A DNA stretch of 64,000 bases from Sporocytophaga sp. (GTDB lineage Bacteria; Bacteroidota; Bacteroidia; Cytophagales; Cytophagaceae). The notes under the pieces are model-generated. The model was not told where the DNA came from, did not search any database, and saw only the letters and a list, made by a program, of their open reading frames with translations. The stretch is taken from contig JANQAB010000008.1 of NCBI GenBank assembly GCA_024707265.1, positions 248,001-312,000 of the forward strand, given 5' to 3'. This document shows positions 38,264 to 44,669 of the stretch, piece by piece. How positions within the stretch are numbered: the stretch's first letter is position 1; every line of letters starts with the position of its first letter. Made by a program: the position numbers and the translations under genes.

Positions 38264-38299
38264 AAAAAGCCTTCAAATTTTTCAATCTGAAGGCTTTTT
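38264..38299 (-). terminator. Intrinsic terminator of the tRNA-Asp unit
   Basis: A 12-bp perfect stem (38264-38275 with 38288-38299), 12-base loop, starting immediately after the tRNA 3' end on the minus strand and followed by a T-run in that direction. Confidence 0.85.
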
Positions 38300-38725: not shown

Positions 38726-41700
38726 TTACTCTTTTGAAATTTTTCTGATCGACTTTCCTTTATCAGTTTCGATTTCCATGTAGTAAATACCATTACTCAT
38801 GTTAGTCATTTCAATCTGGTTGGCAGATTTAAGGTTAAGAACAATACGACCAAGATTATCACGAACGATTATTGATTTGATATTCAGAGCGGTTTCAATT
38901 GTTATCTTTTCCGAAGTAGGGTTTGGGTAAACTAAGATTTCAGTTACATTTCCTATTGAACCAGGAATACCAGTACATACACCATTTCCAACTACTAAAG
39001 TGCTGGAAGTTTTACAACCAAGCTTGTCTGTGACAGTATAAGTATATGATCCAGCCTGAACATTACTTAATTTAGAAGATGTTGATGAATGGTTTTCCCA
39101 GGCATATTGATATTCAGGCACACCGCCACTGACACCAAGACTAATACTTCCATCTGCTGCCCCAGGGCAACCTTCATCTTCAATTGAAGAAGTTACCGTC
39201 ATTTTGGAAGAACTGCTTGAAAGTTCAATTGATTTAGTGACCATGCAGTTTTGATTGTCTGTTATTACAACTGTATAATTGCCAGGGGCAAGATCACTGA
39301 TTTTTTCAGTACTAAGGCCATTATTCCACTCGAATTGATATGGAATCGCTCCTCCGCTCACTTGTAGTTCAATAGATCCGTTTTTATCATATGAACAATT
39401 AGGGTTTATGGTTGATGCACCAACATACATTAACTGTTGTTCTGTAATTGTGAAATCTCTAATTCCGATACAACCTATTGCATCTTGAACAAGTACACTA
39501 TAACTTCCTGCCTCAAGGTCTGAAATGGAATTGCCAGTGGATCCGGTATTCCATGTATAACTGAATGGTGCCGTTCCTCCTAAGACAGATGATATCGTAA
39601 TTGTTCCATCAGCTTTACCTTCACAGCTTGGACTGGTAATGATAGGATTGATAGTCATTGGTTGCGGTTGATCTACTGTTTCTGTCAATTCCTTTTTACA
39701 TCCATTGCCATCAGTGATGACAACAGTATAGATTCCGGAGAAGAGGTTGGTGGCATTTGGCCCCGTAACAACCGGCGGATTCCAGGTATAGTTATATGGG
39801 CTTGTACCTCCGGTTACTTTTACAGCAATTGAACCCGAATTATCAGCAAAACATTTTGCATTAGTGACATCAGTTGTTGCTACTAAGGCAACTGGTTGAG
39901 CGATAGTCACTGATTTGGTTGCACTACAACTTTTACTGTCTTTAATGGTAACTGTATAAGTTCCCGGACTAAGACCGGTCGCTACAGAACTTGTACCTCC
40001 TGATGGTGCCCACGAATAGGTGTAAGCAGGAGTTCCTCCAGTTGGGGCTAGTGTGGCACTACCATCTGCTGCACCAAAGCAGCTTACGTTGGTAGATATA
40101 GACATTGCGTTGATGGCATCTGGTTGATTTATGGTAATAGATTCTGTTACAGAACATCCAAGCTCATCTGTTATCGTGCAGGTATAATTACCTGCAGGAA
40201 GGCCGGATAAGGAAGCTCCTGATCCGCTTACCGGAGACCAGATATAAGTATAGGTTCCGCCACCACCAGTCGCAGATATAGTCGCAGATCCGTCAGACTT
40301 TCCGAAGCAGCTTACATCTGTTTTTGCAGATGAGGCCAGAAGTGTAGAAGGAGAGGTGATTGTTACAGATTTTTGAATGGTGCAGCCATTTGCATCTGTG
40401 ACAGTACATGTATAAATTCCGGCAGAAAGGCCTGCGGCTTTTGCAGCGGTTCCTCCTGACGGAGACCAAGAGTATGAATATGGTGCAGTTCCTCCGGTGG
40501 GAGCCACTGTTGCCTCGCCTGAGCTACCATCTAAGCATGTTACGTTTTTCTGTGTAGTTGTAGCTGCCAGTGCTGCAGACGGCTGACTGATCGTAACTGA
40601 CTTTTCAATAAAACAAGACTTTGCATCAGTGATTTTACATACATAGGTACCTGCGCTGAGGTTGGATGCAATAGCTGCTGTTCCTCCGGATGGTGACCAG
40701 CTGAAAGTATATCCGGCAGTTCCTCCAATTGGCACAACAGTAGCACTTCCATTATTTCCACCAAAGCAGCTTACATTTGAATGAGTTGATAGGGCCGAAA
40801 GATTCGGAGGGTTTTCAATGTTTACAGTAGAGGTGGCCTTACAACTTTTTGAATCAGTAACTGTCAAGGTATATACTCCTGCAGCAAGGTTGCTTGCAGT
40901 GGCCGTTGTTCCGCCGGATGGTGACCAGGAGTATGTGTAAGGGGCATTTCCGTTTGATGCAGTTGCAACAGCGCTTCCGTTGTTTCCGCCGAAACAGCTG
41001 GGGGATGTTTTTACAATTGCAATACCAATAGAAGCCGGCTGAGTTATAGTAACTGTTTTTGTTGAATAGCAGCCTTTGCCGTCAGAAACAGTTACTGTGT
41101 AACTTCCGGCAGCTAATCCGGTTGCTGTTGAAGTTGTACTGGATGCGTTGGTCCATGAATATTGATAAGGTGTTATCCCGCCTGTTGCCGAGATAGCAAT
41201 AGTACCATTATTTCCTCCATAACAAGTAGGATTGGTCTGGGTTGCATTTAGCGCAGGTCCAGGACAAGGTGCTAAAATCTCTAGTTTTGGCCCATTGCCA
41301 TTGATGTTCTCTTTGGAGTTGAAATAGATTCTTGGAAAGCTTTGCTCTATATTTTTAATAACCAAAGTGATTTTGGTTCTTCCAGCTGCTCTTTCACTCT
41401 TAATATAGTTAGTAATATCCCAGTAATATGTATTGTAGGTATATCCCTTAACTACAGTTGTATCAAGGGCAACAGAAGAGATAGCAGGCTGGTTGTTCCA
41501 GGTTATAGTATTTTCCGTCCAGTTCGTTGAGGAAGTATAAACCCCCACAGCTATAGAAGATTTTTTATCTGTATCAGTTTCTTCAATATAACCATACAGT
41601 TTAAGTCTGGCAGATAAAATACTGTCTTTATAATCAGAAATATCAAAAGTTATAAAAGTATTTCTGTTATTTCCTTCTGGTAATAACACTTTTGAGACCA

Positions 41701-44437
41701 GGAATTGAGGGTCAAGTGTACCGTAAGTATTATTCTTAAATGAAGTATCATACCTTGCATTTTGAACATAAGCATCATGGATAGGAGAATAAGAAGATGT
41801 ATCCTGATAAATTTTCTTAAACACTGCAGTGTATGTTGTATTGGTCAAAGGTGTTGAGATGATCTGATCAGCGCTTCCTCCATGAACCCAATGATCAAAT
41901 ACATAAGGAATACCATTGACAGTTTGAGGTGAAACAGGACTGATGGAACGTTCTACTCCTTGCACGGAAAGGGTGGAATATGGAGTAGATTTTGGTTGTC
42001 CGTCTATTTTCAGTTGTAAGCCTGCTGGTTCAGTAGCAAGTGTAAGTGTAGATTTTTTAGGGAAAATTTCAACATAAGCAGTATCGGTAAGCCCCAGGTT
42101 ATCTTTAACTATGAGTTTAATTCTGAACCATACATTGTCTTCAGTTTCCCCTGAAGTAGGAATGGTAAATGTCCCATTTTTAATTCCATTTAAAGGAAGT
42201 CCATCATGCACGTGTGTGTTATGATGAAAGTCAAATAACCATGTAAAGGCAGAAGCTGGAAGTGTACCATCTTCAGGGTCAGTACCAGAGCCGCTAAAAG
42301 TAATTACATCTCCTCCCTTATAAAACGCCTCGTTGATAGGTGTTAAAATAGTGGCTACAGGCTTGGAGTTTTTGGGACCTACAGTCAGTACAGCTACATT
42401 ACTTGTCTCGGAACCTGCTGAGTTACTTACTTCAACCGAATATTCACCGGCATCTCCAGAGGTAGTTGCAGAAATTGTATAAGTAGAAGAGTTGGCATTA
42501 GGAATATTTATTCCGTTTTTCATCCATTGATAGGTGAATGGTGCTGAGCCCGTAACTGTTACAGAAAATGTGACAGGCTGAGTTTCGAATATGCTTACGC
42601 TTTGAGGATGGTTTACGATTTCCGGAGCAGAGTTACCCGAATATACGATTTTGTATACAGCTCTATTGGATCTGCTGAGATAATATAAATTTCCGTCAGC
42701 TCCTGCGTCTATTGCAACCGGAGCTCCAGCCACATTCGCAGAAAAGGTTTGTCTTTTGAAATTGTTAGTCGGGTCCACAAAGTTGATCCAATTGTTGCAG
42801 TAATCCATAAAGAAATACATGCCTAAATATTTGGATGGATAATTGGTGGATTGAGGATTGAAGAATGTTCCTCCTGTTATAGCACAGCCTGTACTGTCAG
42901 TTGTGGTATGACCATATGCATAAACCGGACTGGTAAAATCCGGATTAGTAGTTTTACCTTCTGTTGAAGGCCATCCGAAATTTTTTCCTCCGATTGTTAC
43001 ATCGTTTATTTCCTCCCAAGCATCTTCACCAACATCGTTTACATATATTTTACCGGTTACTGGTTGTACATCAAAAGTGAAAGGATTCCTGAGTCCGTAT
43101 GCCCAAACTCTTTTTCTTTTTTCAGAGCCAGTAGGAAAGGGATTGTCAGCAGGAACACTGCCATCAGGATTTATTCTAAGGATCTTACCAAAATAACTGT
43201 CAAGGTTTTGTGATACGTGAGGAGTAACCTTTTGCTGATTATCACCTGTTGCTATATATAGTTTACCATCTTTTCCAAAAGCCATTGCCCCTCCATTGTG
43301 ACTGACAGACTGATCACTCAACGTTTCCAGTTCCAATAGAACCAATTCGCTGCCTGCTACAACTACATCTCCATTCATAGTAAAACGACTTACTCTATTG
43401 TGGATTCCGCTTGAATTAACAGTATAGTATAAGTATATATAATTATTAGTCTCAAAATCCGGATCAAGGGCAAGACCGATTAAGCCTCTTTCACTATAAC
43501 TTCCGAATTGAGACAGATAAACTGCAGTCTGAACGGTAATCGCAGGGGTGGAAAGTAAATTTCCGTTTTTGATTATTCTGAGTTTTCCTTCCTGCTCACA
43601 GACAAAGATTCTTCCATCAGGAGCACATACCATTACTGTTGGATTTGCAAGATTTGAAGCAACAACAGAATGAACAAAAGTAGCTGTTGGAGCAGATGTT
43701 TCAACGAGTGTTAATGTTCCGAATATATCAGCAGTTTTATAAGCAAGATTTTTATCAGGTCCTGTAACGACTTCAGATCCCATGAAATTATCACGGGTTG
43801 ATGCTCCGTCATTATCACAATAGGCGAGGGCAAGCCCCATCTTTTTATTTACAACCAGATTCGCTTTAGGGTTGCTGGCTGCTCCATATTCAAAAGCATC
43901 TGTATAAACTGTAATAGCTACTTCCCAGGTATATACATCACCATTTTTAGTCCATTTAACATTGACGTGGTCGTTGAAAAGACGAGGATTGCCATCAGTG
44001 CCAATATCTACGGCATCCAATAATGTTGATATATGATAAGCAAAGGCATTGTAGTTTTTTTCATGATCTCCACCAGATTTGTTTTCATCCAGAAGGACTT
44101 CAAAACAATCATCTTCCCAATAATTTACAAGTGGTGCTGCTGTTTTGTCGCTTAAAACGTTATCTGTGATTTCTCCTAAAATATAAAGTTTATCGGCATC
44201 CCATGTAGCTTTAAATCTTCCTGAAAAATCTGCTGCTGTTGGTGTTGAACCCAGCCAAGTCTGATCAATATAATACCAGTTTGCTAAAGCCCAACAGGCA
44301 TCGCTTCCAACTCCATCTATAACCGGAGCAGTCTGAGCTTTGGGAGCTTCATAATCTCTGGCAAAAGATAATTGTGAAAACAAGGTGATCAGCAATACTA
44401 GTCCCGTTTTTAATAAAAACCTTAATTGATGTGTCAT
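38726..44437 (-). CDS. Giant T9SS-secreted protein: CBM9-like, sugar-dehydrogenase propeller, Ig, DNRLRE, ten SprB repeats
   Basis: 1903 aa from the ATG at 44437, chosen because a good signal peptide (MTHQLRFLLKTGLVLLITLF, then SQLSFA) follows; a TTG at 44476 would prepend 13 residues. In order: a CBM9-like domain (VIDGVGSDACWALANW, YWEDDCFEVLLDEN); a PQQ-type glucose/sorbosone-dehydrogenase propeller (ERGLIGLALDPDF, GKDGKLYIATGDN, WAYGLRNPFTFD, VGEDAWEEIN, GGKNFGWPSTEG); an Ig-like domain; a PKD-like segment; a DNRLRE/CBM96-like domain (TFITFDISDY, WTENTITWNNQP); ten SprB repeats of about 76 aa; and a type A T9SS sorting domain (VYPNPTSEKITIE to KSIRKISKE). Likely a cell-surface or secreted carbohydrate-active protein. 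No partner gene is adjacent. Confidence 0.9.
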   Translation of the reverse strand: MTHQLRFLLKTGLVLLITLFSQLSFARDYEAPKAQTAPVIDGVGSDACWALANWYYIDQTWLGSTPTAADFSGRFKATWDADKLYILGEITDNVLSDKTAAPLVNYWEDDCFEVLLDENKSGGDHEKNYNAFAYHISTLLDAVDIGTDGNPRLFNDHVNVKWTKNGDVYTWEVAITVYTDAFEYGAASNPKANLVVNKKMGLALAYCDNDGASTRDNFMGSEVVTGPDKNLAYKTADIFGTLTLVETSAPTATFVHSVVASNLANPTVMVCAPDGRIFVCEQEGKLRIIKNGNLLSTPAITVQTAVYLSQFGSYSERGLIGLALDPDFETNNYIYLYYTVNSSGIHNRVSRFTMNGDVVVAGSELVLLELETLSDQSVSHNGGAMAFGKDGKLYIATGDNQQKVTPHVSQNLDSYFGKILRINPDGSVPADNPFPTGSEKRKRVWAYGLRNPFTFDVQPVTGKIYVNDVGEDAWEEINDVTIGGKNFGWPSTEGKTTNPDFTSPVYAYGHTTTDSTGCAITGGTFFNPQSTNYPSKYLGMYFFMDYCNNWINFVDPTNNFKRQTFSANVAGAPVAIDAGADGNLYYLSRSNRAVYKIVYSGNSAPEIVNHPQSVSIFETQPVTFSVTVTGSAPFTYQWMKNGINIPNANSSTYTISATTSGDAGEYSVEVSNSAGSETSNVAVLTVGPKNSKPVATILTPINEAFYKGGDVITFSGSGTDPEDGTLPASAFTWLFDFHHNTHVHDGLPLNGIKNGTFTIPTSGETEDNVWFRIKLIVKDNLGLTDTAYVEIFPKKSTLTLATEPAGLQLKIDGQPKSTPYSTLSVQGVERSISPVSPQTVNGIPYVFDHWVHGGSADQIISTPLTNTTYTAVFKKIYQDTSSYSPIHDAYVQNARYDTSFKNNTYGTLDPQFLVSKVLLPEGNNRNTFITFDISDYKDSILSARLKLYGYIEETDTDKKSSIAVGVYTSSTNWTENTITWNNQPAISSVALDTTVVKGYTYNTYYWDITNYIKSERAAGRTKITLVIKNIEQSFPRIYFNSKENINGNGPKLEILAPCPGPALNATQTNPTCYGGNNGTIAISATGGITPYQYSWTNASSTTSTATGLAAGSYTVTVSDGKGCYSTKTVTITQPASIGIAIVKTSPSCFGGNNGSAVATASNGNAPYTYSWSPSGGTTATASNLAAGVYTLTVTDSKSCKATSTVNIENPPNLSALSTHSNVSCFGGNNGSATVVPIGGTAGYTFSWSPSGGTAAIASNLSAGTYVCKITDAKSCFIEKSVTISQPSAALAATTTQKNVTCLDGSSGEATVAPTGGTAPYSYSWSPSGGTAAKAAGLSAGIYTCTVTDANGCTIQKSVTITSPSTLLASSAKTDVSCFGKSDGSATISATGGGGTYTYIWSPVSGSGASLSGLPAGNYTCTITDELGCSVTESITINQPDAINAMSISTNVSCFGAADGSATLAPTGGTPAYTYSWAPSGGTSSVATGLSPGTYTVTIKDSKSCSATKSVTIAQPVALVATTDVTNAKCFADNSGSIAVKVTGGTSPYNYTWNPPVVTGPNATNLFSGIYTVVITDGNGCKKELTETVDQPQPMTINPIITSPSCEGKADGTITISSVLGGTAPFSYTWNTGSTGNSISDLEAGSYSVLVQDAIGCIGIRDFTITEQQLMYVGASTINPNCSYDKNGSIELQVSGGAIPYQFEWNNGLSTEKISDLAPGNYTVVITDNQNCMVTKSIELSSSSSKMTVTSSIEDEGCPGAADGSISLGVSGGVPEYQYAWENHSSTSSKLSNVQAGSYTYTVTDKLGCKTSSTLVVGNGVCTGIPGSIGNVTEILVYPNPTSEKITIETALNIKSIIVRDNLGRIVLNLKSANQIEMTNMSNGIYYMEIETDKGKSIRKISKE
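38975..41254 (-). repeat. Ten tandem SprB-type repeats (about 228 bp each)
   Basis: Each unit follows CxGxxxGSAxxxxxGGxxPYxYxWxxxG, then LxAGxYTxxVTDxxGC and xxxVTIxQP. Units 2-6 are most alike (shared WSPSGGT), while units 8-10 diverge. Cysteines at the start and in the D-x-x-G-C turn of each unit could pair. The array fills 2.28 kb of the gene. Confidence 0.9.
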
Positions 44438-44609
44438 TGCGTTTTTTAGAAAGAGAATTAGTGGATTTAAAGTCAATCAATTATAAATAAAGTCCAATTT
44501 AAGAATTTTAACGCTCTTAATGAAATCAATTTATCGAAATGTACATAGGGGGAAGCTCAATTGCTCCATACTTTAATATTGAAAAAAATAATCATTTTTG
44601 AGTATAAAA

Positions 44610-44644
44610 AAAAAGAGACTGTCTTTTTTAGACAGCCTCTTTTT
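44610..44644 (-). terminator. Intrinsic terminator after the transketolase genes
   Basis: Stem AAAAGAG-x-CTGTC with GACAG-x-CTCTTTT, interrupted by one mismatch, beginning about 25 bp past the stop of the C-terminal transketolase subunit gene. Confidence 0.75.
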
Positions 44645-44669
44645 CAAAATTATAATAACTTATATGAAG

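Follow-up and report, generated by a model that had tools for sequence, protein, structure and literature searches.

A minus-strand gene in a 64,000-nucleotide stretch of Sporocytophaga sp. DNA (the window) encodes a modular protein of 1903 aa, in which a glucose/sorbosone dehydrogenase-type (GSDH) propeller with a predicted six-bladed fold retains an invariant His, Arg and Asn and has lost the two arginines expected at the carboxylates of PQQ. The reading favoured here, to which we give slightly less than an even chance, is that of a carbohydrate oxidoreductase directed at chain ends, either tethered or released, whose cofactor site has been remodelled. Published work is cited by PMC accession throughout.

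An earlier note on this DNA had placed a 1903-aa protein at 38726-44437, and the ORF is present there; the strand, which had been omitted, is the minus strand, the plus strand across this interval being packed with stops. The start codon of the 1903-aa version is the ATG at 44437 (window numbering), and an alternative TTG at 44476 gives the longest ORF of 1916 aa. A DUF4468 gene lies downstream and two transketolase halves lie upstream, and no SprF-like gene was found among the eight neighbours scanned. The immediate neighbours were kept in the three other genomes of the genus examined (3/3), with one extra ORF, four genes from the gene, in two of the genus genomes; these neighbours were not kept in two Cytophaga-type genomes nor around the related proteins L027 and L028. 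Two terminator-like hairpins are included in the table below, such matches being no commoner over the region (5) than in shuffled sequences (mean 4.7). An operon with transketolase was considered and is unlikely, given the hairpin in between and the loss of the neighbours in the Cytophaga-type genomes and around L027 and L028. Near the Cytophaga and L027/L028 relatives, two TamB genes, an Omp85 gene, a histidine kinase, a TonB-dependent-receptor-like gene, a Big_7 protein and one GH16 gene (near L027) were seen, and no common carbohydrate cluster was found among the neighbours examined.

Table. Features of the gene for the 1903-aa protein and its flanks (window numbering; residue numbers refer to the protein).
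Feature	Position	Strand	Basis
Whole coding sequence	38726..44437	(-)	1903 aa + stop; ORF calls, Pfam, orthologues
N-terminal signal peptide, residues ~1-26	44360..44437	(-)	visual inspection: basic N-terminus and hydrophobic core
CBM9 domain, residues 40-246, putative aromatic clamp Trp107 + Tyr233	43700..44320	(-)	Pfam CBM9_1 8.5e-37
GSDH six-bladed propeller (predicted), residues 252-600	42638..43684	(-)	Pfam, AF2, structure comparison, alignments
Ig domain, residues 605-683	42389..42625	(-)	Pfam Ig_3 + I-set
Beta-sandwich domain, residues 691-800 (resembles Big/PKD by eye)	42038..42367	(-)	AF2 strands, high pLDDT
Small beta-domain, residues 801-879 (resembles PEGA by eye)	41801..42037	(-)	AF2 strands
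CBM96/DNRLRE domain, residues 880-1054	41276..41800	(-)	Pfam CBM96 2.8e-29; NCBIfam DNRLRE 1.2e-26
Ten SprB repeats, ~76 aa each, residues 1066-1828	38954..41242	(-)	Pfam SprB
Type A T9SS sorting domain, residues 1836-1902	38732..38932	(-)	TIGR04183 2.1e-19
Terminator-like hairpin, between gene and upstream transketolase genes	44609..44645	(-)	16 pairs, T tail
Terminator-like hairpin, downstream of gene	38264..38299	(-)	16 pairs, T tail

The domain matches lie far beyond chance. Pfam identified CBM9_1 with 127.3 bits against a cut-off of 23.4, GSDH at residues 264-522 (E 1.2e-52), Ig_3 at 605-672 (E 8.5e-11), I-set at 605-683 (E 4.2e-9), SprB in ten stretches (E 2.5e-102) and Por_Secre_tail at 1836-1900 (E 1.1e-17); these matches and that to CBM96 all exceed the curated cut-offs, as do the NCBIfam matches to the DNRLRE domain and to the type A sorting domain TIGR04183. 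The ten SprB repeats and the T9SS signal of the earlier note were thus recovered. Its domain list stands as far as it goes and lacked the Ig domain and the two beta-domains at 691-800 and 801-879, for which no Pfam name was found and whose strands AF2 predicts with high confidence. The CBM9 and CBM96 domains, described there as flanking the propeller, do lie on either side of it, yet about 280 residues intervene between propeller and CBM96. Of the 97 proteins surveyed, which include the best 80 of 341 stretches, 77 carry the Ig domain and both beta-domains together with the propeller. An AF2 model of 851 aa, from CBM9 to the second beta-domain, reached a pTM of 0.54 with low confidence in its CBM9 part, which was covered by four sequences only, and the model was not used for claims on domain packing.

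The propeller itself was modelled by AF2 with a pLDDT of 92.4 and a pTM of 0.92, and on this model the six-bladed fold of sGDH is secure. Its best structural match was the Pyrobaculum sugar dehydrogenase 3a9g (Z 43.1, rmsd 1.9, 321 aligned residues), followed by Acinetobacter sGDH 1cq1 (Z 40.6) and E. coli YliI 2g8s (Z 40.4); the best chain of hedgehog-interacting protein (HHIP) reached Z 36.3 and fungal AA12 structures Z 31.4-31.7, with 6jt5 at Z 31.7 and 17% identity. Scored for the 1903-aa protein, the PQQ subfamily model TIGR03606 gave 99.6 bits, its cut-off being 434.55, and since the score is below the cut-off, the propeller was not placed in that subfamily. The genome holds four other GSDH matches, among them the canonical-looking paralogue L001 (385 bits), in which both arginines are kept. 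Another GSDH paralogue, L004 1501-2175 (G000:C1:230480-231154), carries FHGSWN and HRPCG and fits the AA12 ligand spacing taken from PMC6881789.

For the cofactor site, sGDH ligand positions were transferred through E. coli YliI (L026), the sGDH numbers Arg228, Asn229 and Arg406 being those that we take to belong to the aligned sites. Conservation was scored over 93 non-duplicate members from several phyla, the window included, drawn from the 97 proteins. Among the matches listed, His380, Arg450 and Asn451, which align with the catalytic His144 and the PQQ-contacting Arg228 and Asn229 of sGDH, were invariant (93/93), whereas the Arg406 position was occupied by Arg in eight and by Lys in one of the 93, and the Arg408 position by Arg in none. 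The YliI arginines at these two positions correspond to Ala572 and Val574 of the 1903-aa protein, a pairing that was identical in MAFFT and in HMMER (clade profile against YliI). Cys547 sits opposite the YliI lysine taken for Lys377, where Lys was seen in 0/97 of the matches listed. Positions characteristic of the clade, again among the matches listed, are Glu316 (93/93), Arg317 (91/93), Asp545 (93/93) and Cys518 and Cys547 (91/93 each); the Glu316-Arg317 pair lies early in the propeller and is aligned with Gln-Gly of YliI. The 1903-aa protein thus shares with the sGDH-type enzymes 3a9g, YliI and 1cq1 the six-bladed fold, the catalytic His and the Arg-Asn pair after it, and differs from them in the two arginines missing near the C-terminal end, in the cysteine at the Lys position, in the new Glu316-Arg317 and Cys518/Cys547 and in being a modular T9SS cargo. 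Absence of PQQ-site residues, named beforehand as the finding that would speak against the enzyme, was found by half: His, Arg and Asn are kept, while the expected carboxylate arginines are not. Equally, the sugar-oxidase propeller proposed earlier is borne out in its complete sugar-dehydrogenase-type fold and not in those arginines.

Precedent for such a site comes from the fungal CcPDH. PMC6881789 names His144, Arg408 and Lys377 as ligands of sGDH, Lys377 being located at the C-7 carboxylate of PQQ, and His363, Arg430, Asn431 and Arg621 as those of CcPDH; AA12 is described there as having no Lys377 equivalent. Lys377 is not a strict mark, because the paralogue L001 has Ala there. For YliI, a spectral shift has been reported that can serve to follow PQQ binding (PMC13088180). 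CcPDH binds PQQ although it lacks ligands seen in the bacterial enzymes (PMC4133262), and is thus a PQQ enzyme with altered ligands (PMC6881789, PMC4133262). Like the 1903-aa protein, CcPDH (AA8-AA12-CBM1) is a secreted propeller joined to a carbohydrate-binding module, with PQQ-ligand positions that depart from the canonical ones (PMC6881789); it differs in its heme cytochrome domain, which was not found in the 1903-aa protein, and AA12 structures are less similar to the propeller. The AA12 ligand His560 and the Trp563-Asn564 ligand loop (His-x-x-Trp-Asn) are absent from the 1903-aa protein, which has DYCNNW at that place. Heme as electron acceptor was considered and dismissed, as the 1903-aa protein contains no CxxCH motif and no invariant Met was present in the four CBM9 sequences aligned. 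PqqC gave no match in the four genus genomes (4/4) and PqqE remained below the cut-off in 4/4, with no control genome over the cut-off either. A working active site may be argued from the invariance of His, Arg and Asn in 93/93 members across several phyla; loss of both carboxylate arginines could also mean loss of the cofactor altogether. As a separate observation, L003 and L016-L020 form a sister clade of the propeller, in which one PQQ arginine is kept in the motif N/D-R-P.

In the CBM9 domain, Trp107 and Tyr233 align with the residues that form the clamp of TmCBM9-2, Trp71 and Trp175 (PMC8280721), which by our count are positions 72 and 176 of the chain. The pairing of Trp107 with Trp71 is firm, and that of Tyr233 with Trp175 falls in a weakly scored stretch (-0.2 and 2.8 bits). 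Both clamp positions were aromatic in all eight non-duplicate CBM9-carrying proteins found, the window included, among the matches listed. In PMC8280721, a Tyr/Trp clamp is reported to bind, and the reducing end is regarded by its authors as the preferred ligand of CBM9 clamps. The idea that the protein captures polysaccharide ends therefore gains weight from the two aromatic positions of the putative clamp, but non-reducing ends were bound as well in that study.

Orthologues were searched in 59 genomes, the own genome included. Full-length orthologues of 84-90% identity were found in 3/3 other genus genomes examined, and orthologues of 42-47% identity in two genomes of a second genus in the family (Cytophaga-type), the match in one of them lying at G014:C1 1400944-1404996; a third genome of that genus (G017) showed a match to the SprB region alone among the matches listed. 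Relatives of the CBM9 domain were found as stand-alone proteins in G005, G007, G012, G013 and G044. The 97-protein survey comprised the best 80 of 341 confirmed stretches from a contig profile scan and 17 proteins from the genome search, with domain presence scored by purpose-built HMMs that had been trained on the orthologue sequences; removal of the duplicates L046, L088, L089 and L035 (of L010, L012, L013 and L015) left 93. Among the matches listed, CBM9 was present in 9/97, all from Cytophagaceae or unclassified Cytophagales, CBM96 in 36/97, and a tandem SprB array (at least ten SprB matches) in 4/97, all of the window's genus. Proteins from Chitinophaga, Niastella and many other bacteria (L027-L106) share the propeller subfamily and the order GSDH-Ig-beta-domains, and differ in that CBM9 and the tandem array are rare. 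In the propeller tree, from which L005, L097 and the duplicates were left out, the eight non-duplicate CBM9-carrying propellers formed one clade with a support of 0.995, the link between the genus and L027 being weaker (0.729); the Arg-keeping test set in this tree comprised six proteins, with L038 and L082 (Arg) and L092 (Lys) outside it.

The SprB array was found to follow a pattern of its own. At its place the Cytophaga orthologue L046 carries Ig_7 repeats according to Pfam, with no SprB at E 1e-5, and the SprB model made here gave four to five scattered matches each in L010, L011 and L046, L010 and L011 having been judged by this model and L046 also by Pfam. In L027 and L028 the CBM9 domain is present and the array absent. 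Sequence comparison thus indicates that the array is exchangeable between orthologues, a view that rests on the phyletic pattern more than on rate. Within the genus, identity is 88-95% in propeller and CBM9, 80-85% in the array and 74-88% in the Ig domain; against Cytophaga, it is 56-62% in propeller and CBM9 and 26-28% in the array region. The faster change of the array within the genus does not mark it as a mere spacer, because the Ig domain changes as fast. A comparable arrangement of catalytic N-terminus, Ig-like part, SprB repeat and type A signal is found in fucoidanase Fhf1 of Formosa haliotis, which differs in being a GH107 hydrolase with one SprB repeat and is active without both repeat and signal (PMC7698502).

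SprB repeats occur at no fewer than 11 places in the own genome (150 of 300 candidates scored), of which six, the window included, end in a type A domain, four in type B and one in OmpA. The last, L107 7634-14301, combines SprB repeats with a C-terminal OmpA domain, lacks a T9SS signal and is spread over two adjacent reading frames. L109 4879-13469 and L111 2772-16996 are long SprB-repeat regions with type B ends, broken into several reading frames. L113 5532-10834, L114 5584-10824 and L115 4520-9307 are three look-alike clusters, each with an SprB-repeat type A cargo beside two further proteins, one of about 700 aa and the other larger. The C-termini are nearly identical in two of these cargoes.

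The 1903-aa protein is, as judged from its sequence, a T9SS type A cargo, and the secretion route proposed in the earlier note is corroborated by SprA and PorV matches over the cut-off in the genome. SprA, the T9SS translocon, is divided between two reading frames (G000:C5:88654-95539, outside the window), which join near 92864; one of the matches contains a single TAG. This split is either an assembly error or a real break. Type B signals (TIGR04131) gave 37 matches in the own genome, 27 of them over the cut-off; the 1903-aa gene is absent from these 37 and matches the type A model instead. GldJ was represented by matches below the cut-off only.

The SprB repeats had suggested a surface enzyme that moves with the gliding machinery, and this reading has become improbable. 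In Flavobacterium johnsoniae the type B signal of SprB directs even an amylase to the gliding tracks, while SprB fitted with a type A signal either did not move or was released (PMC12618676); the 1903-aa protein resembles the gliding adhesin SprB of that species in its repeats and T9SS export, and differs in its type A instead of type B signal, in the lack of an SprF-like gene among the eight neighbours scanned, in having ten repeats and in its enzyme-like N-terminal part. Six of the at least 11 SprB places end in type A, as noted above, and the array is missing or replaced in orthologues, Cytophaga included. For Cytophaga hutchinsonii, PMC8564354 reports, as data not shown, that the SprB homologue is dispensable for gliding. 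On the side of motion, there is RemA, a type A protein involved in gliding, whose foci were mobile in 86% and immobile in 55% of fluorescent cells (PMC12618676), and C. hutchinsonii deleted for PorV, which shuttles type A cargo, was impaired in gliding, in the use of cellulose and in the localisation of cargo, the authors suggesting other T9SS adhesins in that species (PMC8564354); by analogy, gliding may involve type A cargo. Because of the type A signal, the signal-swap data and the array pattern, the likelier fate of the 1903-aa protein, by analogy, is static display on the cell surface or release, and movement along the cell is less likely.

As to the propeller, the main rival to the oxidoreductase is a non-catalytic, carbohydrate- or matrix-binding scaffold as in HHIP, whose propeller shares the fold, with the 1903-aa protein acting as a plant cell wall adhesin; this we regard as unlikely. 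In its favour, nearly all members of the clade have changed at the Arg406/Arg408 and Lys377 positions, HHIP comes next among the structural families, with heparin complexes among its solved structures, and the remaining domains of the protein are binding modules; on the other hand, the invariance of His380, Arg450 and Asn451 in 93/93 of the matches listed is more than a dead fold needs, an argument weakened by the fact that HHIP, too, keeps the putative catalytic His (PMC4133262). The fold and the catalytic trio would equally suit an ordinary PQQ aldose dehydrogenase like YliI, using PQQ imported from outside; this we consider distinctly unlikely, for the arginine pair shared by YliI and L001 is Ala572/Val574 here, the TIGR03606 score stays far from its cut-off, and the genome also carries the canonical-looking paralogue L001, with both arginines kept. 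A lactonase or other hydrolytic propeller, acting on sugar lactones made by other enzymes, has very little in its favour: lactonase-type propellers do appear in the structural list (Z 24-25), far under the dehydrogenases (Z 43) and level with unrelated NHL propellers (Z 24-26, top 26.0).

Under the favoured oxidoreductase reading, the protein would be exported through SprA/PorV as a stand-alone T9SS type A cargo, after which it would be either released or fixed to the cell surface. Chain ends of glucan or xylan would be gripped by the CBM9 clamp, with CBM96 as a second carbohydrate contact, and the propeller would oxidise the exposed reducing-end sugar (C1 to lactone), His380 acting as the base and Arg450/Asn451 lying at the cofactor. 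The cofactor may be PQQ or a similar small redox molecule, presumably held in a remodelled way, because the PQQ carboxylate arginines are gone and the Glu316-Arg317 pair is new to the clade. The SprB array would serve as an exchangeable stalk, about 760 residues long, that determines reach and would not be a component of motility. What the analysis shows is the domains, the modelled fold, the pattern of conservation, the class of the sorting signal and the exchange of the array among orthologues; the cofactor, substrate, reaction, anchoring and stalk function are deduced from these.

In the main-text literature searched, no description of this protein was found, nor a paper naming both Cytophaga hutchinsonii and sorbosone dehydrogenase, nor activity, cofactor or localisation results for any member of the clade. 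CX11_GM003851, a CBM9 protein in a Sporocytophaga transcriptome (PMC10992098), may be an orthologue.

SprB repeats appear from these data to be a poor sign of gliding and look here like an exchangeable stalk. The clade of at least 93 distinct proteins would carry the name of PQQ sugar dehydrogenases through its family, and the question it raises is whether PQQ is used at all. A bolder possibility, which we hold to be improbable, is that a widespread GSDH clade keeps His-Arg-Asn and swaps the PQQ grip for Glu-Arg and Cys pairs, with another mode of PQQ binding or another cofactor, and that its CBM9 branch performs extracellular oxidation of cellulose reducing ends, a missing step in gliding cellulose degraders. 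Cellulose-digesting Cytophagaceae are described in PMC6247017 as having neither LPMOs nor cellobiohydrolases, their attack on cellulose being unexplained. If true, cellulose degraders of the Cytophagaceae would carry a chain-end-directed oxidative enzyme, which would bear on that attack.
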